Below the pieces are notes generated by a model, which did no database searches, was not told where the DNA came from, and saw only the letters and a program-made list of their open reading frames with translations. A program made the position numbers and the translations under genes. Positions 2,234 through 18,269 of a stretch of 21,820 nt of DNA are shown in pieces (the first letter of the stretch is position 1; every line of letters starts with the position of its first letter). Origin of the DNA: a virus; IMG/VR virus record IMGVR_UViG_3300005563_000861, positions 1 to 21,820 of that record. The stretch is one strand, 5' to 3'.

Positions 2234-2264
2234 ATCCGTGTTCATCTGTGTCCATCCGTGGTTA
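2234..2264 (-). repeat. Interspersed ACCACGGATG-family spacer, copy 1
   Basis: On the minus strand the terminase stop codon TAA is the first element of a spacer containing CCACGGATGGACACAG, then ATGAACACGGAT. It fills the gap up to the next start (2222). It shares CCACGGATG and GAACACGGAT with copy 2 at 4598-4633 and more loosely with 12431-12467. The same style of sequence is, from memory, common between genes in some environmental bacterial genomes. Confidence 0.6.
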
Positions 2265-4304
2265 ATAAAAATTCTTCGGTTGCGCCACAAAATCGCTGCG
2301 GTGGCCGTCCACGGCCCCTTCGTCCTCCGTCACCCCGCCCAGGTACGGGCATTCGTCTAGGAAAAAGTACCGGTCACAATCCACCGGATCTTTGCACGCC
2401 CCGTCCATCGCCCGCCGCCCCTCCTTCGTCATCCCCGTCCACGTCATGAGCGCAAAAATGCTGTTCACGCACTCCTCGCTCACGTACAGCTTCGGCGCGT
2501 TGAAATAATCCACCGGCTTCGTCTCGTCATAATCCAGCGCATCCTGGATCATCGTCACCCCCTCCTCGATATCGTCGCCCGGCGTCGCCTCGAAAAACAG
2601 GTTGATGTCCGCAAAATTCTCGATCAACGTCACCGGCCGGTCGTTCTCCAGCTTCGGCGTGCTCCCGAACCGGCTGTCGATCTTCCGGTCCTGGATCACC
2701 TCGCGCGCCCCGTTGTGCTCGCTCATCCCGTCCAGGAACTCCTCGCGCACCTCCTTCGGCATCTGCATGAACTCCCGCTCGTATTTCTTCAAATCATGCC
2801 AGCCCTCCAGCCGCGCGATCTCCTCCTTGTACCGCCGCAACCCCCAGCCGAACGGCTTCTGCGCCGGCCCCCGCTTCCCGTCCGGATGCTTCCCGTCCGG
2901 CAACGCCCACGGCCCCGGCACGCCGATCCCAGGTATCGAATAATTCCCAGGCCACTCGCGATAGATGTACACCGCCCGCGGTGTCACCCGGTACCACTTC
3001 ATGAAAAAATTGCGACCCGCCGGGTCCACCCGCTGATAATTCGTCCCCTCCTTGGGGATCTGGTTCGCCGGGATCACGTGCACCGTCCGGTTGAACTTCT
3101 TGAACCGTGCGCTCATCGTCTTCGTCGCGATCCCGTAAAAGCGTTCCTTGATGAAATCCGCCGGCTTCCCCGCGATCTTGCGCCAGATGTTCTTTGGGTT
3201 CCCGTACGGATTGTCGCTCGAATGGAAATACACCACCGCCCGCTCCACCTCCTGGTTCTCTCCCGGTGCGCACTTCAACACCCGCGGCACCACCTCGAAC
3301 TCCCGCCCCGCCGGCACCGGCACCTGGCCGCTGTTGACCGGGTTCACATCGCTCGCCCCCTCCCACGCCTCCAGCCACTTCTGACACTGCTCCGGGCGGC
3401 TTTGCGGATACAGCGCCGCCCGCTTCTCTGTCACCGCCCGCCACAATTCCTCGTACTCCGCCTCCGACACTCCGAGCGCCCGGACCGGGTCCGGCTTGCC
3501 CCCGTCTTTCGGACATAAAAATGCCACGCTCTCCTTCACCACCTCCGCCCCGTCGCACAGCAACCGCACCGTCTCCGTATAACCCTCCACCGGCGTGAAC
3601 GTGATCACCACCCACCCGTTCTTCTCCGCCACGCGCAGCTCCAGCGTCTCCACCCAGTCGCTCGGCACCAGCTCGTCCGGCCACACGATCTCCAGGTTGC
3701 CGCCCTCAATTGACCGGATGTCCTGCTCATACGCCTTGAACGTGCAGCTCGCCCCCGCCTCCCCCGAAGTCGCGCTCTGCGGCGGCAGCACGAACTGCTC
3801 GTCGCTAAAACCCGTCTTCTGCTTGTACGCGATATATGCCGTCTTTCCCTTGATGTCCCCGCCCTTCAAGTGCGACGGCAGGTAATTGTAAAACAGCGGC
3901 TGCTGGTAATCCCGGCTCATCTGCAATGTGCTGTGCAGCGCCCACGCCTTCGCCGCCACGTAATGGAACAGCACCCGCATCGTCCGGTTCGCCGCGAACT
4001 GCGTCTTCCCCGCGCGATTCCCGCCCAGGATCAGCAACGTCCGCACCGCCTTGTCGAACCGCAGATGCTTCCGCATCTGCTCCGCCCACACCTTCTCCAC
4101 CCACGGCATGCCCAGCAACGCATCACACACCCGCCAGATCGGCGGCTGCCACAGATGCGAGAACGGGTCCGCCTTCTCCTCCGCGATGATCCGCTCCCGC
4201 CGCACCATCGCCTCGTTCCAGGCCTGCGACCCCATCGCCACCGCCTGCTCGGCCGTCGGCAGGCCCAGCACCGGATGCGCCGTCGGTTGAAAAGGTTTGG
4301 CCAT
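2262..4304 (-). CDS. Terminase large subunit (DNA packaging ATPase/nuclease)
   Basis: The product from the ATG at 4304 is 680 residues. It would pump phage DNA into the prohead and cut it. The ATPase half shows a Walker A box GGNRAGKT at about 94-101, a hydrophobic-Asp-Glu Walker B (LEIVWPDE, 204-211) and a coupling motif TFTPVEGYTE (235-244). The C-terminal half contains RVDPAGRNFFMKWY (about 425-438), placed where the first acidic residue of the RNase H-like nuclease is expected; the other acidic residues cannot be assigned with confidence. A segment rich in Pro/Gly at about 265-335 looks like an insertion. I chose the ATG at 4304 rather than 4322 because AAGGAG lies at 4313-4318, eight bases upstream. 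The preceding gene stops two bases before this start. No small terminase subunit is adjacent. The 680-residue length is on the long side for large terminases. Confidence 0.92.
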   Translation of the reverse strand: MAKPFQPTAHPVLGLPTAEQAVAMGSQAWNEAMVRRERIIAEEKADPFSHLWQPPIWRVCDALLGMPWVEKVWAEQMRKHLRFDKAVRTLLILGGNRAGKTQFAANRTMRVLFHYVAAKAWALHSTLQMSRDYQQPLFYNYLPSHLKGGDIKGKTAYIAYKQKTGFSDEQFVLPPQSATSGEAGASCTFKAYEQDIRSIEGGNLEIVWPDELVPSDWVETLELRVAEKNGWVVITFTPVEGYTETVRLLCDGAEVVKESVAFLCPKDGGKPDPVRALGVSEAEYEELWRAVTEKRAALYPQSRPEQCQKWLEAWEGASDVNPVNSGQVPVPAGREFEVVPRVLKCAPGENQEVERAVVYFHSSDNPYGNPKNIWRKIAGKPADFIKERFYGIATKTMSARFKKFNRTVHVIPANQIPKEGTNYQRVDPAGRNFFMKWYRVTPRAVYIYREWPGNYSIPGIGVPGPWALPDGKHPDGKRGPAQKPFGWGLRRYKEEIARLEGWHDLKKYEREFMQMPKEVREEFLDGMSEHNGAREVIQDRKIDSRFGSTPKLENDRPVTLIENFADINLFFEATPGDDIEEGVTMIQDALDYDETKPVDYFNAPKLYVSEECVNSIFALMTWTGMTKEGRRAMDGACKDPVDCDRYFFLDECPYLGGVTEDEGAVDGHRSDFVAQPKNFY

Positions 4305-4306
4305 GA

Positions 4307-4588
4307 TTATTGCTCCTTCCACCAGTCACCCGCGTCCGGTTTGACGTTGCCGCCCTTCAGTTGGACGATCTCCGCCGCCATCGAACCCGCCAGCGCCTCC
4401 ATGAATTGCAACTTGTTCTGCAACATCTTCACCTGGTGCTTGCGCGATTCCTCCCGCTCCTGATGCAGCTTGTGCACCTCCGCCCAGCCGCGGACCGTTT
4501 CCGTCCAGATGCGAGCCAGCGCGATAAACGCCAGCCAACCCACCACCGCCGCCACCGCCAGCAACACGATCAAAAGCGTTTCATTCAT
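4307..4588 (-). CDS. Small single-pass membrane protein with coiled coil
   Basis: The product is 93 residues. Residues 4-27 (LLIVLLAVAAVVGWLAFIAL and flanks) form one strong membrane segment directly after a three-residue start. They are followed by a charged helical stretch (VHKLHQEREESRKHQVKMLQ, about 38-57) with coiled-coil character and a second helix ending in an acidic/aromatic tail (DAGDWWKEQ). The topology fits a phage small membrane accessory such as a spanin- or holin-associated protein, but I see no lipobox and no lysis enzyme nearby, so the role is unassigned. It stops two bases before the terminase start and starts after spacer repeat copy 2 with an AAAACCTATGA context and no Shine-Dalgarno site. 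Confidence 0.65.
   Translation of the reverse strand: MNETLLIVLLAVAAVVGWLAFIALARIWTETVRGWAEVHKLHQEREESRKHQVKMLQNKLQFMEALAGSMAAEIVQLKGGNVKPDAGDWWKEQ
4313..4318 (-). promoter_or_regulatory. Ribosome binding site AAGGAG of the terminase gene
   Basis: AAGGAG on the minus strand, eight bases before the ATG at 4304, lies within the last codons of the upstream gene. It selects the start that yields MAKPF rather than MEGAII. Confidence 0.7.
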
Positions 4589-4597
4589 AGGTTTTCT

Positions 4598-4633
4598 TTG
4601 TTTCCGTGTTTAATCCGTGTTCATCCGTGGCTA
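4598..4633 (-). repeat. Interspersed ACCACGGATG-family spacer, copy 2
   Basis: On the minus strand this begins with the TAG stop codon of the HD hydrolase and continues CCACGGATGAACACGGAT, then TAAACACGGAAACA. It fills the gap to the start at 4588. It has the same layout as copy 1: stop codon, CCACGGATG, ACACGGAT, A-rich run, AAAACCTATGA. Confidence 0.6.
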
Positions 4634-5245
4634 ATTGCGTTTCTGCCCATTCACTCCCGTCAGAATGCGTGGCTCCGTCAGCGCTAGGTAATACGCATTA
4701 AAACTCTGTCGTGCCTCCTCCGGCCCCCACGGCAACACTGTCCCCGGCAACGGCGCGATATGCTCCGTGCTCCACTTGTGCGGCGAGGCCGGCAGCAGAT
4801 CCCGCCGCTCCGTCATCAACGCCCGCACATCCGCCTCCTTCACCCGCGGATCCAGCTCGAACGGCAGCCCGAACTTCAACGCGATCGCGTGCCAGATGCG
4901 CCACTCGATCTCCTTGAACTCCGGCAGATGCAACTTCAGCGGCTGCACCATGTCCCCGCAATACGCCTCCGTCGCGTCATGCAACAACCCCTGCAACTGC
5001 AACTCCGGCGGCAACTGCATCGCCACCAGGATCGAATGTTGCGCCACCGAATAAAACTGCCGGCAATGCCCCCCGAACCGGCAGATGTTCGCCAGCGCAT
5101 GCGCGATGTCCTCCAGGCACACCTCCGCCGGCAGCGGCGACATCGGATAAAACTGCCGCCCCGAAAACGTCAGTTGCCAGTTCCCCCGCCCGTCCGGGGC
5201 CGGGACAGCCTGTCCCGGCATCAAGTCGTTCGGTTCGTTATTCAT
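4631..5245 (-). CDS. HD-domain phosphohydrolase (phage nucleotidase type)
   Basis: The product from the ATG at 5245 is 204 residues. HD hydrolases of this phage-borne class resemble 5'-deoxynucleotidases and are thought to adjust nucleotide pools. I see FSGRQFYPMSPLPAEV (about 27-42), then DIAHALANICRFGGHC (46-61), YSVAQHS (65-71) and LLHDATEAY (87-95), the last carrying the metal-binding His-Asp pair (H89, D90). The start is set by an AGGAGG at 5252-5257 and by overlap with the stop of the upstream gene (ATGAATAA). The N-terminal 22 residues (DLMPGQAVPAPDGR) are translated from a perfect palindrome and look inserted relative to the conserved fold. It precedes the membrane protein and terminase genes. 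The substrate is unknown. Confidence 0.85.
   Translation of the reverse strand: MNNEPNDLMPGQAVPAPDGRGNWQLTFSGRQFYPMSPLPAEVCLEDIAHALANICRFGGHCRQFYSVAQHSILVAMQLPPELQLQGLLHDATEAYCGDMVQPLKLHLPEFKEIEWRIWHAIALKFGLPFELDPRVKEADVRALMTERRDLLPASPHKWSTEHIAPLPGTVLPWGPEEARQSFNAYYLALTEPRILTGVNGQKRN
5199..5219. repeat. Perfect palindrome inside the HD hydrolase gene
   Basis: Arms GCCGGGACAG (5199-5208) and CTGTCCCGGC (5210-5219) surround a single C, so ten base pairs match perfectly. It encodes part of the probably disordered N-terminus of the HD protein (PGQAVPA). It would fold as an RNA hairpin close to the start codon, or it may be an interspersed palindromic element. Confidence 0.7.
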
Positions 5246-5480
5246 GGCCCGCCTCCTGCGCATTCTTCTCCGCCGCGGCGGCGATCGCCCGCCGCTCCAG
5301 CTCGGCGATGCACCGCTCCGCCACCTGCAACTTTTCCTTTACCTTCACGAACATCGCCGCCGGCACCGGGTTCACCATGCCCACCTCCACCACCCGCTGC
5401 ATAAACATCGCCGCCTCATCCGTCGCCCGCACCACGCCCGCCGCCAGCTCGGCGTGGGACTGCTGCAAATAATCGTTCAT
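5238..5480 (-). CDS. Small helical phage protein of unknown function (80 aa)
   Basis: The product from the ATG at 5480 is 80 residues and almost entirely helical: MNDYLQQSHAELAAGVVRAT, a Met-rich middle (AAMFMQRVVEVGMVNPVPAA) and a charged C-terminal helix (KVKEKLQVAERCIAELERRA) that could coil. It is not a family I recognise. A longer in-frame start at 5540 would add 20 very basic residues, but AAGGAAA at 5484-5490 supports 5480. Its stop overlaps the start of the HD hydrolase, so the two are co-translated. Confidence 0.55.
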   Translation of the reverse strand: MNDYLQQSHAELAAGVVRATDEAAMFMQRVVEVGMVNPVPAAMFVKVKEKLQVAERCIAELERRAIAAAAEKNAQEAGHE

Positions 5481-5793: not shown

Positions 5794-7506
5794 TCACTTT
5801 TTCTTCGCCGCCTTCACCTTGGCCTTCGGCTTCTCCGCCGGCACCGGTGCCGCCTTGGCCGCCTTGTTGCTCTGCGGCCACAACGCCATGAGCTTGTCGC
5901 GGTCGGATTGTTCCTTCTTGCTGCCATAGCCCACCCACGTCGAAGAGGTCCGTAACAGCAGCTCCACGGCATAGCCGGGCAGGTTGTCGATCAATGGCGT
6001 GGTCTGGATGGTTTTGCTGATGATCTCGGCGTTCTTCTTCCAATCCTTGTCCACCTGGTGGCCCATGCCGTGCCCCTTCATCACCGCCACGATTTCGGAC
6101 TCGTCATAGTTCTCCAGGAAAACGGACAACGCCATCTGCGCCAGGTTGCGCCAGAACAGGGCCGGCATTTTCCGCAGCGCATCGCTGGACGAGCTGATGA
6201 TCTCCGTCAGCCGCTCCTCCATCTTCTTCTGTTCCGCCGCCTCCTTGGCCTCCTCCGCCTTCTGCTTGGCCTCGTCGCGCTTGCGCTGGGCCAGCTCCGC
6301 CGCGCTCGCTTTCCGCTTCGGCTCGGGTTTGATCAGTCCGTTGTCCTTCGCGAACTTCACCAGCTCCGCCTTCTTCCAGATGCGCTTCAACCGCATGCTG
6401 TCCCCGTTGTCGAAACGGCTCCCTTCCGTCAGCGCATAGATCGCCGGCGGCGCTTTCGTGCCCAGGATCTCTTTCCACTTTTTGTATCCGGGCGCCTCGT
6501 AGCAGGTATCGTCCTCGGACACGTAGTCGTTGCTATACCGGTTCTTTTCGTACTGCTTCGCGGTCCAGACGCCGGCGATAACCGGCGAACTGTTGGACGC
6601 CACCGCGCCGCACTTCTCCCGGAAGCAGCCCGGGTTCGTGCAGATGTTTGCATCCCCCTCCGCCGCCGGGATGTTCCCGGTGCGATACGGACAATCCGTG
6701 CACTTCGGTGCCGGCTTGCCGTCGAGTTTCACCGCCGCGAACAGCATCTCCTGGCTGAACGGCGCGTTCTTCAGCGTGATCCGGTAATTCGTTTGGATGA
6801 TCGTCTTTAATTCACGGAAACTCGGCGGCTCGTCATCACCCCGTCTCGGTTCGGTGGCTTCCTTCAGCACCTCCAGTTGGTTCTGCTGGTCCGGGATCTG
6901 GGCGATCAGCGCCGCCTTGCTGGCATCGAGCTTGCCCTCCCGCACCGCCGCCTGCACCGCCGGGGCCGTCTTCAACAACGCCAGCTTCCCATAAACCGCC
7001 GTCGGCTTCCGGTCGATCTTGCCCCCGATATATTCCACCGCCGCCTGCACCGTCTTCACCGTCCCCGCCTTTAGCAGGCTGTCCCGCCACGCCGCATACC
7101 CCTGCGCCTCCTCCAGCGCGCTCAGGTCCGCCCGTTGCAGATTCTCGATCTGCTGGATCTCCACCACCTGCGCGTCATCCAGCCCCTCCAGCACCAGGTT
7201 GATCTCGGCCAACTTCGCCTCCAGCGCCGCCGTCACCCGCCGTTCCCCCGCCACCAGCTCGTACTTCTTTCCCTTCGCCGCCGCGGCCGACCGGCCCGCC
7301 GGCAAGGGACGCACCAGCGGCCACTGCTTCACCCCGTGCTGCTTCACGCTGGCCACAAACTCCGGCCAGTCCGCCGCCTTCGTGAAATCCTGCCCGCGCG
7401 GATTCGTCAGGCTCCGCGCGATCTCGCCCGGCGCCGCCTTGATGTGTTTCGATTCAATCGTTTTGCTAACCGTCGTTGCTGTCGTTGTTGATGCGTTTTG
7501 GTTCAT
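5794..7506 (-). CDS. ParB-like nuclease/partition-domain protein with cysteine cluster
   Basis: The product is 570 residues. The N-terminal ParB/Sulfiredoxin-type domain shows a strand/NPR segment (SLTNPRGQD, 32-40), ELVAGERRVTAA with the GERR box at 87-90, and QQIENLQRADLSALEEAQGY (118-137), the usual continuation into the HTH-containing part. From 269 there is a cysteine cluster (C269, C272, C289, C294, C299) that looks able to bind a metal, as in several phage and plasmid ParB-like proteins. Residues about 400-445 are a Lys/Glu/Ala-rich coiled coil, and the C-terminus (KAKVKAAKKK) is strongly basic. No ParA lies beside it, so chromosome-style segregation is not supported; DNA binding, nicking or regulation are possible. 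The nearest upstream gene is the frameshifted winged-helix gene. There is no clear Shine-Dalgarno site before the ATG at 7506. Confidence 0.85.
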   Translation of the reverse strand: MNQNASTTTATTVSKTIESKHIKAAPGEIARSLTNPRGQDFTKAADWPEFVASVKQHGVKQWPLVRPLPAGRSAAAAKGKKYELVAGERRVTAALEAKLAEINLVLEGLDDAQVVEIQQIENLQRADLSALEEAQGYAAWRDSLLKAGTVKTVQAAVEYIGGKIDRKPTAVYGKLALLKTAPAVQAAVREGKLDASKAALIAQIPDQQNQLEVLKEATEPRRGDDEPPSFRELKTIIQTNYRITLKNAPFSQEMLFAAVKLDGKPAPKCTDCPYRTGNIPAAEGDANICTNPGCFREKCGAVASNSSPVIAGVWTAKQYEKNRYSNDYVSEDDTCYEAPGYKKWKEILGTKAPPAIYALTEGSRFDNGDSMRLKRIWKKAELVKFAKDNGLIKPEPKRKASAAELAQRKRDEAKQKAEEAKEAAEQKKMEERLTEIISSSSDALRKMPALFWRNLAQMALSVFLENYDESEIVAVMKGHGMGHQVDKDWKKNAEIISKTIQTTPLIDNLPGYAVELLLRTSSTWVGYGSKKEQSDRDKLMALWPQSNKAAKAAPVPAEKPKAKVKAAKKK

Positions 7507-8854: not shown

Positions 8855-10306
8855 TTATTGAGTCAAAGTAAAATCAATCGCCCCCTGGTTCGGCTCCACG
8901 TGGAATTGCAACGTCTCGTGGTGGAAATACAGCCAGCGCGCCCCGTTCTGGTTCGTCCCCGGATACCGCTGCTTGCTGTGCGTGAACTTGCTGTCCCACA
9001 CCTTCCGCAACTTCTCCCGCGCCTCCCGGATCACCTCCGGCGCCTTGCTCCGCGCCGCCTCCTCCTGCTTCAGCTCGATCAGCTCCTGCGCCTTCTTCTC
9101 GTTCCGCTCCATCTTCACCACGTTGTCCGGTGCGTCCGTCAACTGCTTCGAGCCCCGCACCTTCTGCTTCATCGAACCGTCCCCCTTGTTCTCATGCACC
9201 ACCACCACCGTGTGCGCCTTCCACTTCATTGAAAAACCGCACACCCCCTGGATGAAATAACCCTGCGCCGCGTAATCATCATCCGCGATCCCCACCTTCA
9301 TCATGTTGTCGATGATGAAAAACTTCCCCCCGTGATGCTCCGCCGCGTAATGGAACGTGTTCAGCAGATCGTTCTTGTCCGTGATCCCCCAGAAATTATA
9401 AAGCACCACCCGCTTGTTCAGCCACGCCAGCGCCCGCACGATCCGGTGGATGTTCTCCTCCGTCCGCTCCAGCTTCCCCAGGCCCATCAACTGCCGCGCC
9501 ATGATCCACAACGTCACCTCCGGCCGCATCTCCATGCTCGCCACCACCACCCGCTCCCCCTCCGCCAGTTGCGCCGCCACGCAGATCGCCATCAGGCTCA
9601 GCATCGAAGTCTTCCCCGAGCCGTTGTCCCCCGTGAACAACGTCGTCTCCCCCGGCCGCAACCGCAGCGTGTACTCGAACGGCAGACGGTACCCGTACTC
9701 ATCCTCCTTCCGGTCAAAAAACTGGTTGTAATACGCCTCCGCAAACTCGTTCGGAAACGACAAATTCTTCGGCTGCACCGTCCCCCGGTGCGTCAGCCGC
9801 ACCCACTCCTCATGCCGCAACTGGATGTTCGCGATCTTGCTCTCCGTCAGCTCCCCGGACTCCATCACCGCCGCCGTCTGCTCGGAATTTTTCTGGATCA
9901 GCCGTCGCGCCACAAATTTTTCCCAGACCAGCCGCAGGTAATCCTCGATCATCGAGGGCGAAACCGCCGCATCCTGGCACTGGCTCAAGTACGCGTACCC
10001 CCCCACCTGCTCCAGCAACCCGCGTGCCTTCAGCTCCGCCTGCACCGTGATCACGTCCAGCCGGCCGTCCCGCGCCTTCAGGAAGGTGATCGCGTTCCAG
10101 ATCGCCAGATGCGCCAGATCGTAAAACACCTCGTCACTCCCGAACTGCGCCTGGCACCGCTCGATCGCCGCCAGCGCCTTCGCCATCTCCCCGTCCACCA
10201 TCGACACCGACCCGCCCAGGCAACACCCCAGCACCGCCCGCTCCGCCAGCCCGTCATGCGGCGGCAGCTTGTCCAGCGTCGGATTTTGTTGGGAAACGGA
10301 TTCCAT
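8855..10306 (-). CDS. dnaB: DnaB-type replicative helicase
   Basis: The product is 483 residues, close to the usual length for DnaB. The N-terminal domain has LAERAVLGCCLGG (20-32) and helices through about 140. The RecA-like motor has a Walker A box GDNGSGKT (226-233), VVVASMEMR (253-261), a Walker B FFIIDN (329-334), a sensor-type His in VVVVHENKG (367-375) and RGSKQLTDAPDNVVKMERN (384-402), which resembles the DnaB arginine-finger region. It unwinds the phage DNA ahead of the fork and would recruit host primase and polymerase. It starts one base after the stop of the exonuclease (TGATATG) with no ribosome site, so it is probably translated by reinitiation. Its likely loader partner is the replisome organiser at 10883-11839. 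Confidence 0.9.
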   Translation of the reverse strand: MESVSQQNPTLDKLPPHDGLAERAVLGCCLGGSVSMVDGEMAKALAAIERCQAQFGSDEVFYDLAHLAIWNAITFLKARDGRLDVITVQAELKARGLLEQVGGYAYLSQCQDAAVSPSMIEDYLRLVWEKFVARRLIQKNSEQTAAVMESGELTESKIANIQLRHEEWVRLTHRGTVQPKNLSFPNEFAEAYYNQFFDRKEDEYGYRLPFEYTLRLRPGETTLFTGDNGSGKTSMLSLMAICVAAQLAEGERVVVASMEMRPEVTLWIMARQLMGLGKLERTEENIHRIVRALAWLNKRVVLYNFWGITDKNDLLNTFHYAAEHHGGKFFIIDNMMKVGIADDDYAAQGYFIQGVCGFSMKWKAHTVVVVHENKGDGSMKQKVRGSKQLTDAPDNVVKMERNEKKAQELIELKQEEAARSKAPEVIREAREKLRKVWDSKFTHSKQRYPGTNQNGARWLYFHHETLQFHVEPNQGAIDFTLTQ

Positions 10307-10307
10307 A

Positions 10308-10835
10308 TCAGAGCTTGATTTGCAGGGCGTAAAGGATGTCCATCAAATGCACCGCCTGGCTCCTGGCATCGTCCAGCGCGTTGTGGTGCGTGCCGGTGCG
10401 TGCCATTTTCACCTGCGGCGCGAGCGCCTTCATCGTCCGGTAACACCGGTCATTCCAAAGCTTCCACGGTGCCTCCTCATGGATCGCCCGGTAGGCCGCC
10501 ACCAAAATCGGGTTGTCAAACGACGCGCCATTGCCCCACACCTCCGCCTCGTCCGGCAACAGCCAGTTCCGGAACTGCGTCAACGCCGTGATCAGTTCGG
10601 TGCCGCCCTGGCAGATGCCGCCCCGCGCCGGCTCGTTCCGCTCCAGCCACCACTTCACCGTGCCCGCGTCGATCGTCAGCCCCGCGCGCTGCGCGTCCAC
10701 CATGTCGATGACCTGGTAAAATTCCTCCCCCAGCTCCATGTTCGCCGGGTTGAACTTCACGGCACCGATCGCCACGATCACCGCGCCCGGGCCGGTGCCC
10801 AAAGTTTCCAGATCCAGCATGACTTGTATTTTCAT
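10308..10835 (-). CDS. DEDDh 3'-5' exonuclease (Rv2179c-like)
   Basis: The product from the ATG at 10835 is 175 residues. The DEDDh residues are all visible: D8 and E10 in MLDLETLGTGPGAVI, D107 in WGNGASFDNPIL, H151 and D155 in GTHHNALDDAR. KWWLERNEPAR (61-71) and CYRTMKALAP (131-140) also match the phage/Rv2179c-like 3'-5' exonuclease group. It would remove nucleotides from 3' ends of DNA or RNA during replication or recombination. An in-frame extension back to 11123 overlaps another gene and is not used. The leader is A-rich with ACACCTATGAAA and no Shine-Dalgarno site. The stop is directly followed by the helicase start. Confidence 0.9.
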   Translation of the reverse strand: MKIQVMLDLETLGTGPGAVIVAIGAVKFNPANMELGEEFYQVIDMVDAQRAGLTIDAGTVKWWLERNEPARGGICQGGTELITALTQFRNWLLPDEAEVWGNGASFDNPILVAAYRAIHEEAPWKLWNDRCYRTMKALAPQVKMARTGTHHNALDDARSQAVHLMDILYALQIKL

Positions 10836-10882
10836 AGGTGTGTTTTCTTCGTTTGTTTTTTGGTTTGAACGTCCGGAGTGGT

Positions 10883-11839
10883 TTAAGCCGTGTGCAACTC
10901 CTCCTCCAGCGCCGCGATTTCTTCCGGCACGCCGCTTTGACGCGCCAGCTCCAGCGCTTGCAAAATCTCCCCGCGCGGCCGCCCCGTTTTTGTCACCCGC
11001 TCGCCGTGGCTGCCATTGGGTCCAGGCACCGCCTGCTCGCGCTGGCCGTAGTAATCGTGAAAGTTCGCGCCGAACAACGTCCCCGGCTTCAGCCAATGCC
11101 GCGCCTTCGGGTCGTTTTTCCACAAAGCCACCTGCCGCCGCAGCATCCGTTCGATCCCCGCCACATCCCGCCCCGCCTCCAGCAGCCGGCCCGTGATCTG
11201 GTCCAGCTCATGCAACGGCGGGTTGAACTTGGAACCCGTCAGCGCGTTCAGCAGCGACACCAGCCTCGCCGCCGTCTCTGCATCGCCCTCCCCCACACCC
11301 CCTGTGGGAGAAGGAACGATAGAAGGAACGAATGATAGTGCGCTGGCTTCGCGGTGGCTTCCTGATGGGGTACCCGTAGGGGGAACCGTTGGGTTATCGT
11401 TGGCTTCCGTCGAAATGCGTCCAGACCCACCTTTAGACCCACCCCTGCGACTGGCCGGAACCGCCGCTATATCCGTACGGTTAACCGTTGGGTTCTCGGT
11501 GGGTTTTTGCCCGCGTCTCCCAAAGGGATTACGCTGCCAGTTCCCCACCATCTGGCTGTTCATCTCGTTCCAATCGTGGATCCGCACCCCGTCTTTTTCA
11601 ACCACCACGAACCCCGGCTTGCCGCACTCCGTCAGACCCTTGAACAGCGCCCCCTCCTGGCCGTCCCAGCCGCAGATCATCTCCACGTACGAGGCATCCG
11701 CCCCCGCCCAGAACTCACCCCGCTGGTTGCTCTGGCAATGCCCCCAGATCGCCACCAGGAACTCCATCGCCCGCTCACCGGCGATGCGCTTCAGACGAAG
11801 GAACTTCGGGTGCCGCGGCAATTCAGGTTCAACACGCAT
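10883..11839 (-). CDS. Phage replisome organiser (DnaD/phg_2220_C-like)
   Basis: The product from the ATG at 11839 is 318 residues. The N-terminal part (MRVEPELPRHPKFLRLKRIA, AMEFLVAIWGHCQSNQRGEF) looks like the winged-helix of phage replication initiators of the O/DnaD type. A Gly/Ser/Thr/Pro-rich linker (about 110-190) follows. The region around residues 198-268 (LVSLLNALTGSKFNPP, GIERMLRRQVALWKNDPK, HWLKPGTLFGANFHDYY) matches what I know of the conserved phage C-terminal domain phg_2220_C. Such proteins bind the origin and load the helicase, here the DnaB two genes downstream. A TTG six codons upstream is also possible; the ATG is preferred but lacks a ribosome site. The origin may lie within the gene, as in lambdoid initiators, but I could not locate iterons. 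Confidence 0.8.
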   Translation of the reverse strand: MRVEPELPRHPKFLRLKRIAGERAMEFLVAIWGHCQSNQRGEFWAGADASYVEMICGWDGQEGALFKGLTECGKPGFVVVEKDGVRIHDWNEMNSQMVGNWQRNPFGRRGQKPTENPTVNRTDIAAVPASRRGGSKGGSGRISTEANDNPTVPPTGTPSGSHREASALSFVPSIVPSPTGGVGEGDAETAARLVSLLNALTGSKFNPPLHELDQITGRLLEAGRDVAGIERMLRRQVALWKNDPKARHWLKPGTLFGANFHDYYGQREQAVPGPNGSHGERVTKTGRPRGEILQALELARQSGVPEEIAALEEELHTA

Positions 11840-11872
11840 GTCAAAAGTAAGGTTCAATCGGATGTCAAAAGT
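11838..11872. repeat. Two direct copies of ATGTCAAAAGT, 24 bp apart
   Basis: ATGTCAAAAGT occurs at 11838-11848 and 11862-11872. On the minus strand this is ACTTTTGACAT, each copy holding TTGACA. The nearer copy includes the ATG of the replisome organiser. The repeats could be a binding site or a local duplication. A good -10 at the right distance is not present. Confidence 0.6.
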
Positions 11873-15514: not shown

Positions 15515-15889
15515 ATGGCCGAGCCCAAAGTTAAATTCTCTGAATTTGGTGGGGAAAATGACCCTCCTTACAGCCAGCAACAGATAGATCAAATCTGCGC
15601 TAGGCTCGACACTCTGAAAGAACCCGTCTTCATTCGCCCGCCGGATACAAAGCTGCAAGTTTTTAAGTGGATAACCCTCCTCTTGTGTGGTGCCGCCCTT
15701 GGCCTCTTTGCCCTCTCACATCGCTACGCCACCACATCGCAGATTGTGACGATTCAGAATCACCAATGGATGGTGGCCATCAAAGTGGACAACCTGACTG
15801 GCACCACCTCCTTCTGTCGCATCGGCGATCCGTTGGAAGATACCTATTCCCCCTTACCTTCACCTTGGGTTAACATGTCCGTCAAATAG
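15515..15889 (+). CDS. Small membrane-anchored protein, possible lysogeny-expressed gene
   Basis: The product from the ATG at 15515 is 124 residues. An acidic 49-residue N-terminal part is followed by one membrane segment at about 50-68 (FKWITLLLCGAALGLFALSH) and a short domain (IVTIQNHQWMVAIKVDNLTG, TTSFCRIGDPLEDTYSPLPS) outside or inside the membrane. It follows regulator B and would be made from the same promoter, so it may be expressed in lysogens, for example as an exclusion or conversion factor; that is inference. A TTG at 15479 could extend the frame. Its 3' end overlaps the integrase stop by eight bases, tail to tail. Confidence 0.6.
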   Translation: MAEPKVKFSEFGGENDPPYSQQQIDQICARLDTLKEPVFIRPPDTKLQVFKWITLLLCGAALGLFALSHRYATTSQIVTIQNHQWMVAIKVDNLTGTTSFCRIGDPLEDTYSPLPSPWVNMSVK

Positions 15890-17216
15890 TCCGCGCGTCC
15901 GGAGTCTTTGCTGGCTTCGCCAGCGGTGTAAGGGCGCACGCGCCCTCGGACCAGGCATCCAAGGCCACATCATCCCGATGCCCCTGCGCGTCTTTGACGG
16001 TAATCCCTATGTCCAGACCAAGTCTGCGCCACGGAAACCACCGCTCAAAATAATGCCGCTCCGCCACCCCTTGCGGCACATGGCGCAAAAACGCCTTCGC
16101 CGCCTCATGCCCATACCGCTCCTCCATCACCTGCGCCGCCCAGCGCCGCAACTCATACCCCGCCTTCGCATAATCCTTGGCGGGTAAAAACTGACGCATA
16201 AACTTAGCATGCACCTCATTCACCAGGTCATGCCGCTCCGTCACATCCTTCGCCACAATCAGAAAATCATCCGGCCGTTTACCGCTCACAAATGGCAGAA
16301 ACAAAGCCGCCACCTCCGCCGTCAGCGGAATGTGTCCCTCCGACCGCTTCGGCTCAAAATACGGCGTGCGAAGAACCGAAAAGAAAACCTGCCCCCACGG
16401 CGCGCGTTTGAACCACTCCACCCGCGCCTGGCACATCTCATCATTGCGCAGACCAAGGAACTTCTGCAAATGATGCACCAGCCACAACTGCGGCTGCGTT
16501 TCCTTCAACTTGTCAATGGCGGTTTGTATCTCCAGCAACGTCCCCGCCTGGATCGGCAAATGGATCCGCGCCTCCGTCTCGATCACCGCCGCCGCCCTAA
16601 ACCGTGTCAGGTCCGGCAAATTCAGATCCCGATAAATCAACAAGGCCTGCGCTGAAAACATGCTCTTCACCTGGCGCAAAATCGAATCCGCCCCACGCCG
16701 GCGACTCTCCCGCGCCTCCCGATCCTCACCCGCCGCCTTCACATAATTCGCCTTAAAATTCGCCACCAAAATCTCATCCGCCAAAATCCCGGCCGAAAGC
16801 CCGTCCACGTTCAAAGTCTCATTCTTCTTCCCCTCGGCCCCGTGCGCCCAACGCAAAAAAGTGCGCAACGCCGAAACATTCTTGATGATCGAGCTATGCT
16901 CCAGCCCCTCATTCACCGTTTTGATTTTGCCCTTGTAGGCAGCGATAATCTCGCCGAACGTCGCCGGCATCCGCGTCCGTGGTCCGCGCAACTGCTGGAT
17001 TTGTTTCTCCGTCATATCCCGCAACAACGCATTTCGTTTGGCGATGGCCAGCGAGCGGTCCTTTGTCTCCAGCGAAAGGGAAACCGTTTTCTTGTGAATG
17101 CGCTTGCGAAAGTACCACCAGCCATAGCGGCACATGAGATTGGAAGGATTAGCCGCCCGCGGTGCGCTGTATTTGATGGGAGCAGGTGTAACCATAAGTG
17201 GTGTCACGCGACGCAC
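15882..17216 (-). CDS. int: Tyrosine recombinase / phage integrase
   Basis: The product is 444 residues from a GTG at 17216, or 437 from the ATG at 17195; neither has a clear ribosome site. An N-terminal arm-binding-type segment (CRYGWWYFRKRIHKKTVSLS, about 29-48) leads into a core-binding domain (GEIIAAYKGKIKTVNEGLEH, ALRTFLRWAHG) and the catalytic domain. Catalytic candidates are R257 in FLGLRNDEM, K290 in EPKRSEGHIPL, R357 in GYELRRWAA, H379 in FLRHVPQG and the nucleophile Y389 in ERHYFERW. The usual first His of the H-x-x-R box is Tyr (Y354). It would integrate and excise the phage at the tRNA-Arg fragment 108-130 bases upstream of its start. The terminal codons overlap the convergent membrane gene. 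Confidence 0.85.
   Translation of the reverse strand: MRRVTPLMVTPAPIKYSAPRAANPSNLMCRYGWWYFRKRIHKKTVSLSLETKDRSLAIAKRNALLRDMTEKQIQQLRGPRTRMPATFGEIIAAYKGKIKTVNEGLEHSSIIKNVSALRTFLRWAHGAEGKKNETLNVDGLSAGILADEILVANFKANYVKAAGEDREARESRRRGADSILRQVKSMFSAQALLIYRDLNLPDLTRFRAAAVIETEARIHLPIQAGTLLEIQTAIDKLKETQPQLWLVHHLQKFLGLRNDEMCQARVEWFKRAPWGQVFFSVLRTPYFEPKRSEGHIPLTAEVAALFLPFVSGKRPDDFLIVAKDVTERHDLVNEVHAKFMRQFLPAKDYAKAGYELRRWAAQVMEERYGHEAAKAFLRHVPQGVAERHYFERWFPWRRLGLDIGITVKDAQGHRDDVALDAWSEGACALTPLAKPAKTPDARTI
15910..15946. terminator. Two adjacent hairpins at the convergent gene ends
   Basis: GCTGGC/GCCAGC around TTC (15910-15924) and AGGGCGC/GCGCCCT around AC (15931-15946) lie inside the last codons of the integrase, 20 bases past the stop of the plus-strand membrane gene. 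No T run follows, so they are plausible but unproven stop points for the convergent transcripts. Confidence 0.35.
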
Positions 17217-17305: not shown

Positions 17306-17421
17306 AAAACCCAATAAAATAGGTGGTGCATCCGGCAGGACTTGAACCTGCAACCTTCTGATCCGAAGGCTACTTGTAGTGGTTTTTTAAGACGGCACAC
17401 CAACTCCAAAAACCCAATAAA
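17306..17421. repeat. 13-bp direct repeats flanking the attachment core
   Basis: AAAACCCAATAAA occurs at 17306-17318 and 17409-17421, 103 bases apart, on either side of the tRNA fragment. They could be integrase arm-type binding sites. The right-hand copy lies inside the end of the endonuclease gene. Confidence 0.6.
17324..17368 (-). other. Attachment site: 3' half of tRNA-Arg (TCG)
   Basis: The 45 bases on the minus strand run from CTTCGGA (anticodon loop, anticodon TCG) through TCAGA (3' half of the anticodon stem), the T arm (GCAGG TTCAAGT CCTGC) and the acceptor strand CGGATGC, to ACCA. The D arm and 5' acceptor strand are absent; upstream there is only the end of the endonuclease gene. 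A tRNA 3' half beside an integrase is the classic phage att core. The acceptor 3' sequence matches bacterial tRNA-Arg genes I know. Confidence 0.8.
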
Positions 17422-18236
17422 CGCTGAATATTCTTGTGATTTTCCCAGTTTTGACGGGCCCTTTTAAATGCAGTGGTGTCATTTACAATTCGCTCTCCGG
17501 ACGTGCGGAGATGGGAAATGGCGTTGTCCATCGCCCGCAGAGATGCGGTCTTTCGCTTGGCTGATTGCAGATCATCGGTCCCAGTATTGATGTCGTGCTT
17601 TTCGCCTTGGACTATACGGCGATAGTGCCATACACCCTTTACTTTTTGATAATGCTTCGAGTGGGTGCGTCTGGCCCGGGCGGCCTTTGTAAACTGGCCA
17701 AATTGATGATGCGTTGTGCCCTCTGCAAAATCGATTTTGGCCAAGCGCCCGAGATCTCGGATGGTTTTTGGTGGAGGGATTTTGGGGACCAAAATGGCGC
17801 CCTCTGGAGTCGTGTTCAGTATGGCATGTTCACCATAAAGTCTTAAAGATGCCCAATTATAGACTTGGGCGGCCTGTTCTGCGGTTGGGAAACAACCCAG
17901 GTTTATTCCTGCGGTTGATGCCTTAAAATTTCCAGGCCCTAATTCCAACACACCACGATACCCAGTTTTGTTTTGCCATAAGCGGTTTCTGGCATTTTGC
18001 GCGTGGGTTGCATGCCTTAGATTTTGCCGCTGGTTATCCAACCGGTTGCGGTTAATGTGATCAATCACCTGTCCCGGCCTTTTCCCTACGATCATGGCAT
18101 GCATTGACTGGGTACGCCGGGCCACCGTGGTAACGGCATACCCTCCGGAGTAATGCCATTTGTAACGGATCAATTGGGTATAATCCGTATCGTCGACGAG
18201 TGCCTTCATCCCATTGGAAATGATGATTTCCTTCAC
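17370..18236 (-). CDS. HNH-AP2 endonuclease with integrase-like C-terminal region
   Basis: The product from the GTG at 18236 is 288 residues. The N-terminus (VKEIIISNGMKALVDDTDY) and the HNH core (MHAMIVGKRPGQVIDHINRN, RLDNQRQNLRHATHAQNARN; about 45-84) are those of phage homing-type HNH endonucleases. Residues about 90-141 (TGYRGVLELGPGNFKASTAG, INLGCFPTAEQAAQVYNWAS) are an AP2 DNA-binding domain. The extra C-terminal part (195-245: GVWHYRRIVQGEKHDINTGT, DDLQSAKRKTASLRAMDNAI) looks like the arm-binding region of tyrosine integrases. Base composition is visibly richer in A/T than the neighbours, suggesting separate acquisition. The TAG stop is one base before the tRNA fragment. GTG was chosen because relatives start at (M)KEI; a TTG at 18242 is the alternative. 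Confidence 0.8.
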   Translation of the reverse strand: MKEIIISNGMKALVDDTDYTQLIRYKWHYSGGYAVTTVARRTQSMHAMIVGKRPGQVIDHINRNRLDNQRQNLRHATHAQNARNRLWQNKTGYRGVLELGPGNFKASTAGINLGCFPTAEQAAQVYNWASLRLYGEHAILNTTPEGAILVPKIPPPKTIRDLGRLAKIDFAEGTTHHQFGQFTKAARARRTHSKHYQKVKGVWHYRRIVQGEKHDINTGTDDLQSAKRKTASLRAMDNAISHLRTSGERIVNDTTAFKRARQNWENHKNIQRLLGFWSWCAVLKNHYK

Positions 18237-18269
18237 ACACAAAGGCTATCAAAAACAATAATTATCACA

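Follow-up and report, generated by a model that had tools for sequence, protein, structure and literature searches.

Gene content of the viral contig

The window, meaning the whole stretch of DNA analysed here, is the entire virus record of 21,820 bp, and nearly every gene in it lies on the minus strand. Read in the direction of transcription from the open right end, it starts with a gene for a giant protein, followed by an HNH endonuclease, a tRNA fragment and an integrase; then come several small genes with an HTH gene, a Phg_2220_C protein, an exonuclease and DnaB, and finally ParB, a phosphatase, the terminase large subunit (TerL) and a portal-like gene at the open left end (Table 1). The preliminary description had placed the 3' half of a tRNA-Arg gene between the integrase on one side and the endonuclease and a giant virion-type protein on the other, which is borne out here, with all three genes on the minus strand. 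In addition, a gene resembling deoxyribonucleoside 5'-monophosphate phosphatases (4631–5263; phrog_318, 3.9e-73) is present between those for ParB and the terminase.

Table 1. Features of the window in order of position.
Feature	Position	Strand	Evidence and remarks
Portal-like protein, 3' end cut by contig end	3..1673	-	homologous to a gene of phage C75C1 (1e-34)
Terminase large subunit	2262..4322	-	weak Terminase_6N match below cut-off; homologues in phage C75C1, G258:C149 and IMG/VR contigs at up to 63%
ParB-like protein	5794..7506	-	PF02195, PF17762; homologue in G258:C149
DnaB-like replicative helicase	8855..10306	-	PF00772, PF13481
3'-5' exonuclease, Rv2179c-like	10308..11123	-	PF16473, 1.6e-51
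Replication-associated protein with Phg_2220_C domain	10883..11857	-	PF09524, 6.6e-9; start codon uncertain; overlaps preceding ORF
Tyrosine recombinase (integrase), 444 aa	15882..17216	-	on CCA side of core; start codon 107 bp from core
13-bp direct repeat AAAACCCAATAAA, copy 1, CCA-side arm	17306..17318	+	candidate Int arm-type site (inferred)
attP core (very probable), 3' half of tRNA-Arg(TCG), anticodon-loop first base to CCA	17324..17368	-	45/45 identity to complete genes
HNH (AP2-like) homing-type endonuclease, 290 aa	17370..18242	-	PF13392, 6.5e-9; phrog_99, 2e-25
13-bp direct repeat AAAACCCAATAAA, copy 2, anticodon-side arm	17409..17421	+	inside 3' end of HNH gene
Giant internal-virion-type protein, C-terminal 1182 aa, 5' end cut by contig end	18270..21820	-	phrog_6651, 9e-11

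The giant protein matches a family of internal virion proteins, and its relatives were found in the phage genome MW202801, in G258:C149 (a contig from a metagenome-assembled genome, MAG, of the host order) and in 12 IMG/VR contigs. In a close-relative scan of viral contigs the protein alone had no match, and the same scan with DnaB returned one distant locus; it took alignments to detect relatives among viral contigs. The portal-like protein is also homologous to the gene that follows TerL in G258:C149 and in four further loci (L055, L057, L064 and L065).

Both end genes, those for the giant protein and the portal-like protein, are cut by the contig ends, and the window is devoid of the capsid gene and most tail genes. 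By comparison with G258:C149 and MW202801, the complete genome is expected to be about 40 kb in size, of which the window should be roughly half. A terminal repeat of at least 13 bp, as would mark a circular complete contig, was looked for in the 21.8-kb sequence and none was found. The window has a GC content of about 60%, with 49% in the HNH gene, 58% in the integrase gene and 67% (0.665) in the giant gene. Tetranucleotide correlations between the giant gene and the left part range from 0.38 to 0.64, and those of the left blocks among themselves from 0.36 to 0.81; the two sides are compatible in composition.

The tRNA-Arg half and its counterpart in the probable host group

Read 5' to 3', the tRNA fragment is CTTCGGATCAGAAGGTTGCAGGTTCAAGTCCTGCCGGATGCACCA, 45 bases which comprise the anticodon loop (C-T-TCG-G-A), the 3' side of the anticodon stem, the variable loop, the T-arm, the 3' side of the acceptor stem and an encoded CCA. 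The 5' half is lacking, and ARAGORN accordingly reports no complete tRNA anywhere in the window. An Rfam search gave no match, no terminator was found around the fragment, and no match to the exact 45-mer was found in the close-relative scan of viral contigs.

The exact 45-mer is present in eight of the genome records that were searched, all of which are titled Verrucomicrobia or a verrucomicrobial group, and several of which belong to subdivision 3 or Limisphaerales. A search for the complete tRNA-Arg(TCG) gene in the host had been proposed in the preliminary description, and six Verrucomicrobia MAGs were indeed found to carry one that matches the core at all 45 positions; the remaining two of the eight occurrences are orphan halves. 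On one side, the identity between the window and the host genes breaks off precisely where the anticodon loop begins, at its 5' edge, and on the other precisely at the CCA; a chance match is excluded by this exact stop at both edges. Moreover, when the host 5' half (taken from L008) was joined in silico to the window core and the flank on the integrase side, ARAGORN recovered a complete tRNA-Arg(TCG), while the opposite junction, corresponding to attR, gave none. Judged from these matches, the host of the phage most likely belongs to Verrucomicrobia subdivision 3.

The two orphan halves with the identical 45-nt core are located at 1531–1575 of L002 and at 3644–3688 of L004, both in Verrucomicrobia MAGs. 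The L002 half adjoins an integrase gene, which is on its anticodon side, while putative host genes are on the CCA side. Other elements thus appear to use the same host tRNA-Arg.

A diverged tyrosine recombinase beside the core

The integrase was identified through its relatives and its fold and not through a profile match of its own: as a single query it had no match in Pfam, PHROGs, NCBIfam or PDB, nor in the close-relative scan of viral contigs. It is homologous, at 20–26% identity, to recombinases matching PF00589 and phrog_1, and its family profile matches solved Int and XerA/XerC-like proteins. The catalytic residues of tyrosine recombinases (R, K, HxxR, H/W, Y) align with R257, K290, R357, H379 and Y389, with the usual histidine of the HxxR motif replaced by Y354. 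A single-sequence AlphaFold model was uninformative (pLDDT 35), whereas the alignment-based model (mean pLDDT 63) had its best fold matches in lambda Int and Cre. On this homology and predicted fold, the product of 15882–17216 is assigned as a diverged tyrosine recombinase.

Searches of 293 genomes of the host order with the integrase, the virion protein and TerL returned distant relatives only, and no integrated copy (attL/attR with the same core) was found in this sample. Distant integrase relatives are present in 16 of the 293 genomes. Among 12 relatives that were fetched, eight (L015, L017–L022 and L024) have a core-like tRNA 3' half that starts at the same base and lies upstream of the integrase gene, and the orphan halves of these chromosomal relatives are likewise tRNA-Arg 3' halves. 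In all eight, the anticodon side faces the integrase in an attR-like manner, whereas in the window the orientation is reversed and the CCA side faces it. The layout of the relatives is what the displaced end (attR) should look like in an integrated element whose integrase lies at that end. A fixed orientation of the integrase relative to the tRNA was considered and rejected, given the reversed orientation in the chromosomal relatives. In addition, short repeated motifs (e.g. aagcgaa and cgaac) were observed between the integrase and the core in L015, L017, L018, L019, L020, L021, L022 and L024, and these may be arm sites.

The HNH gene and a pair of 13-bp repeats

On the anticodon side, the stop codon of the HNH gene ends 1 nt before the core. 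The homologues of this gene are free-standing phage HNH(-AP2) endonucleases, and G258:C149 has one with 34% identity between its virion and integrase genes, while L058, L060 and L062, three contigs that are described below, yielded no homologue. The HNH gene is AT-rich and was probably inserted later; G258:C149 would hold a second case, in inverted orientation. The two related phages carry their HNH-AP2-type genes beside the attachment region (17370–18242 in the window; 1702–2625 in G258:C149, locus L030), both AT-rich and in opposite orientations, which suggests that a homing endonuclease has been inserted repeatedly beside attP.

The core is flanked by two copies of the direct repeat AAAACCCAATAAA, and these are the only copies in the window when up to 2 mismatches are allowed. 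When the region was shuffled 2000 times with its dinucleotides preserved, a repeat of this length arose once. The pair is put forward as candidate arm sites of the integrase, of which the second would lie within coding sequence.

Conserved gene order in related phages

G258:C149 is a contig of 41,854 bp with DnaB, ParB, TerL and portal genes at one end and the virion protein, HNH and integrase genes at the other. All seven have homologues in the window, and the circular order is the same as that of the window but cut at another point, so each contig bridges the ends of the other. It differs from the window in that the virion gene is on one strand and the HNH and integrase genes are on the other, and in that no tRNA-Arg half was found in it, only a complete tRNA-Met. 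This tRNA-Met (5886–5960) sits between the integrase and the replication genes; complete tRNA-Met genes were also observed in the related phage contigs L063 (137–214), L036 and L038 (both 4955–5029).

MW202801 (Podoviridae sp. ctQWt234) is a circular genome of 40,140 bp that contains, in order, the virion protein, lysis genes, integrase, replication/KorB genes, TerL and portal. As in the window, a tRNA 3' half (39983–40024) adjoins the integrase, and the circular order of virion protein, integrase, replication/KorB, TerL and portal is shared. In contrast to the window, the tRNA is a different one, lysis genes separate the virion gene from the integrase, the virion protein is just 28% identical, and the integrase, TerL and portal proteins are not alignable pairwise by BLASTP.

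The same arrangement is found around other tRNAs. L058 (a tRNA-Ser half) and L060 and L062 (tRNA-Lys halves) have the order giant gene, tRNA 3' half, integrase and replication genes, and the latter two continue to DnaB and TerL. In L055 and L103 the order is integrase, tRNA-Lys half, replication genes and TerL, so that the tRNA half again lies between phage genes. The Ser and Lys identities are readings of the anticodon loops of these halves. Homology between the giant genes of L058, L060 and L062 and that of the window was tested for and none was detectable, and these contigs are therefore a precedent for position only. The giant gene ahead of the tRNA half in L060 (46–5262) differs from that of the window in that its N-terminal part is of a DarB-like antirestriction/helicase type (phrog_10089, 1.6e-186).

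Interpretation of the locus

The observations above very probably identify 17324–17368 as the attP core of a temperate tailed phage, likely of a Verrucomicrobia subdivision 3 host, and the contig as its un-integrated form. The core is identical to part of a tRNA gene that is restored in silico upon integration, a site-specific recombinase lies 107 bp away, and phage DNA is present on both sides, with replication, TerL and portal genes on one and the HNH and internal-virion-type genes on the other. The right-hand genes belong to the same phage map because the same circular gene order recurs in G258:C149 and MW202801, and because phage genes flank the core on both sides, the contig is best read as the un-integrated form. 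The preliminary description had arrived at attP rather than a prophage end, and this is supported by the absent 5' half, the phage genes on both sides and the conserved order in relatives. Its view that the contig forms one circular phage map agrees with the order in both relatives, but the map itself is incomplete with both end genes cut. Of its proposal of a free, excised or circularly assembled phage, the un-integrated form stands as the best explanation, while circular assembly is unsupported, with no terminal repeat of at least 13 bp. A free state of the phage DNA is the simplest reading of the sequence, but the same junction would be seen in linear DNA from particles, in DNA under replication and in copies integrated in tandem.

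During integration, the phage integrase (15882–17216) would exchange the core with the identical 3' half of the host tRNA-Arg(TCG) gene, and strand exchange might occur at or near the anticodon loop, where the identity begins. At one end of the product, the host 5' half and the phage core would form an intact tRNA followed by the integrase gene; at the other, the HNH and virion side would be followed by the displaced 3' half and then by host DNA. The DNA that was assembled would come from an excised circle, from replication or from particles, in the last case with attP in an internal position.

Among the alternatives, the internal junction between two prophages, whether of one phage or of two, that sit in tandem in a single tRNA-Arg gene is improbable. 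Its sequence would equal attP if the two phages were identical; with different phages, one would end where the next begins. Other elements with the 45-bp core are indicated by the orphan halves in L002 and L004, and tandem islands at single tRNA sites are recorded by Islander (PMC4383910), but the gene order across the core matches that of single phages, the composition of the two sides is compatible, and two integrated copies are required with neither attL nor attR in the contig.

Somewhat less probable still is a misjoin, in which a short-read assembler fused two elements at a shared 45-bp repeat. Host tRNA genes and further integrated elements contain the core as well, the assembly k-mer could exceed it in length, and the GC content of the giant gene is above that of the rest of the contig. 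Yet the giant genes of G258, L060 and L062 are likewise GC-rich relative to most of their own contigs, and the same neighbours are found in contigs with other tRNAs (L058, L060 and L062) as well as in G258:C149, which has no tRNA half at the site; the conserved order together with the compatible tetranucleotide composition makes a misjoin unlikely. Least credible of all is that the core marks the actual end of a prophage (attR or attL), bordered on one side by host DNA. Orphan 3' halves are indeed found at prophage ends in other cases, such as L002, but here the integrase is on the CCA side, where a prophage junction (attL) would include the 5' half of the host tRNA; no such half is present, and the other side, in place of host DNA, carries an HNH gene and a virion-type protein gene of the kinds found in phages.

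Beyond the attP reading itself, we propose only tentatively, and regard as rather doubtful in its entirety, that the window belongs to an undescribed temperate phage lineage of Verrucomicrobia subdivision 3. In such a lineage, attP would have stayed between the integrase and a giant tail-end virion gene while the target tRNA changed (Arg, Lys and Ser), and an HNH homing endonuclease would have entered an attP arm, leaving an arm site of the integrase in its coding sequence.

Comparison with known systems

Phages and islands that integrate into tRNA genes with an attachment core starting at the anticodon loop are known as class A in Islander (PMC4383910). The window resembles this class in its exact tRNA 3' half from the anticodon loop, the adjoining tyrosine integrase and the tRNA restored in silico; it differs in the HNH gene on the anticodon-side arm and in that no integrated copy was found. 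Metagenomic phage contigs have been linked to their hosts by attP/tRNA identity by Mizuno et al. 2013, including a marine Verrucomicrobia phage (PMC3861242), and the same kind of link was made for glacial viruses (PMC4490671). The evidence for the window is of the same type, and the host phylum is shared with the Verrucomicrobia phage of PMC3861242; the linked genome there, of group G11, belongs to another phage group and is marine with 43.8% GC, whereas the host here is most likely in subdivision 3 and the window has about 60% GC.

In metagenomic phage contigs, an exact tRNA match next to an integrase is thus already an established way to recognise attP, and the mechanism is textbook. The arrangement is well known and the phage group is little known: the present analysis connects strongly diverged phages with a host lineage, Verrucomicrobia subdivision 3, and singles out the gene that probably carries out their integration. 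Moreover, it illustrates that one linear contig can suffice to recognise attP where a tRNA half lies between phage genes.
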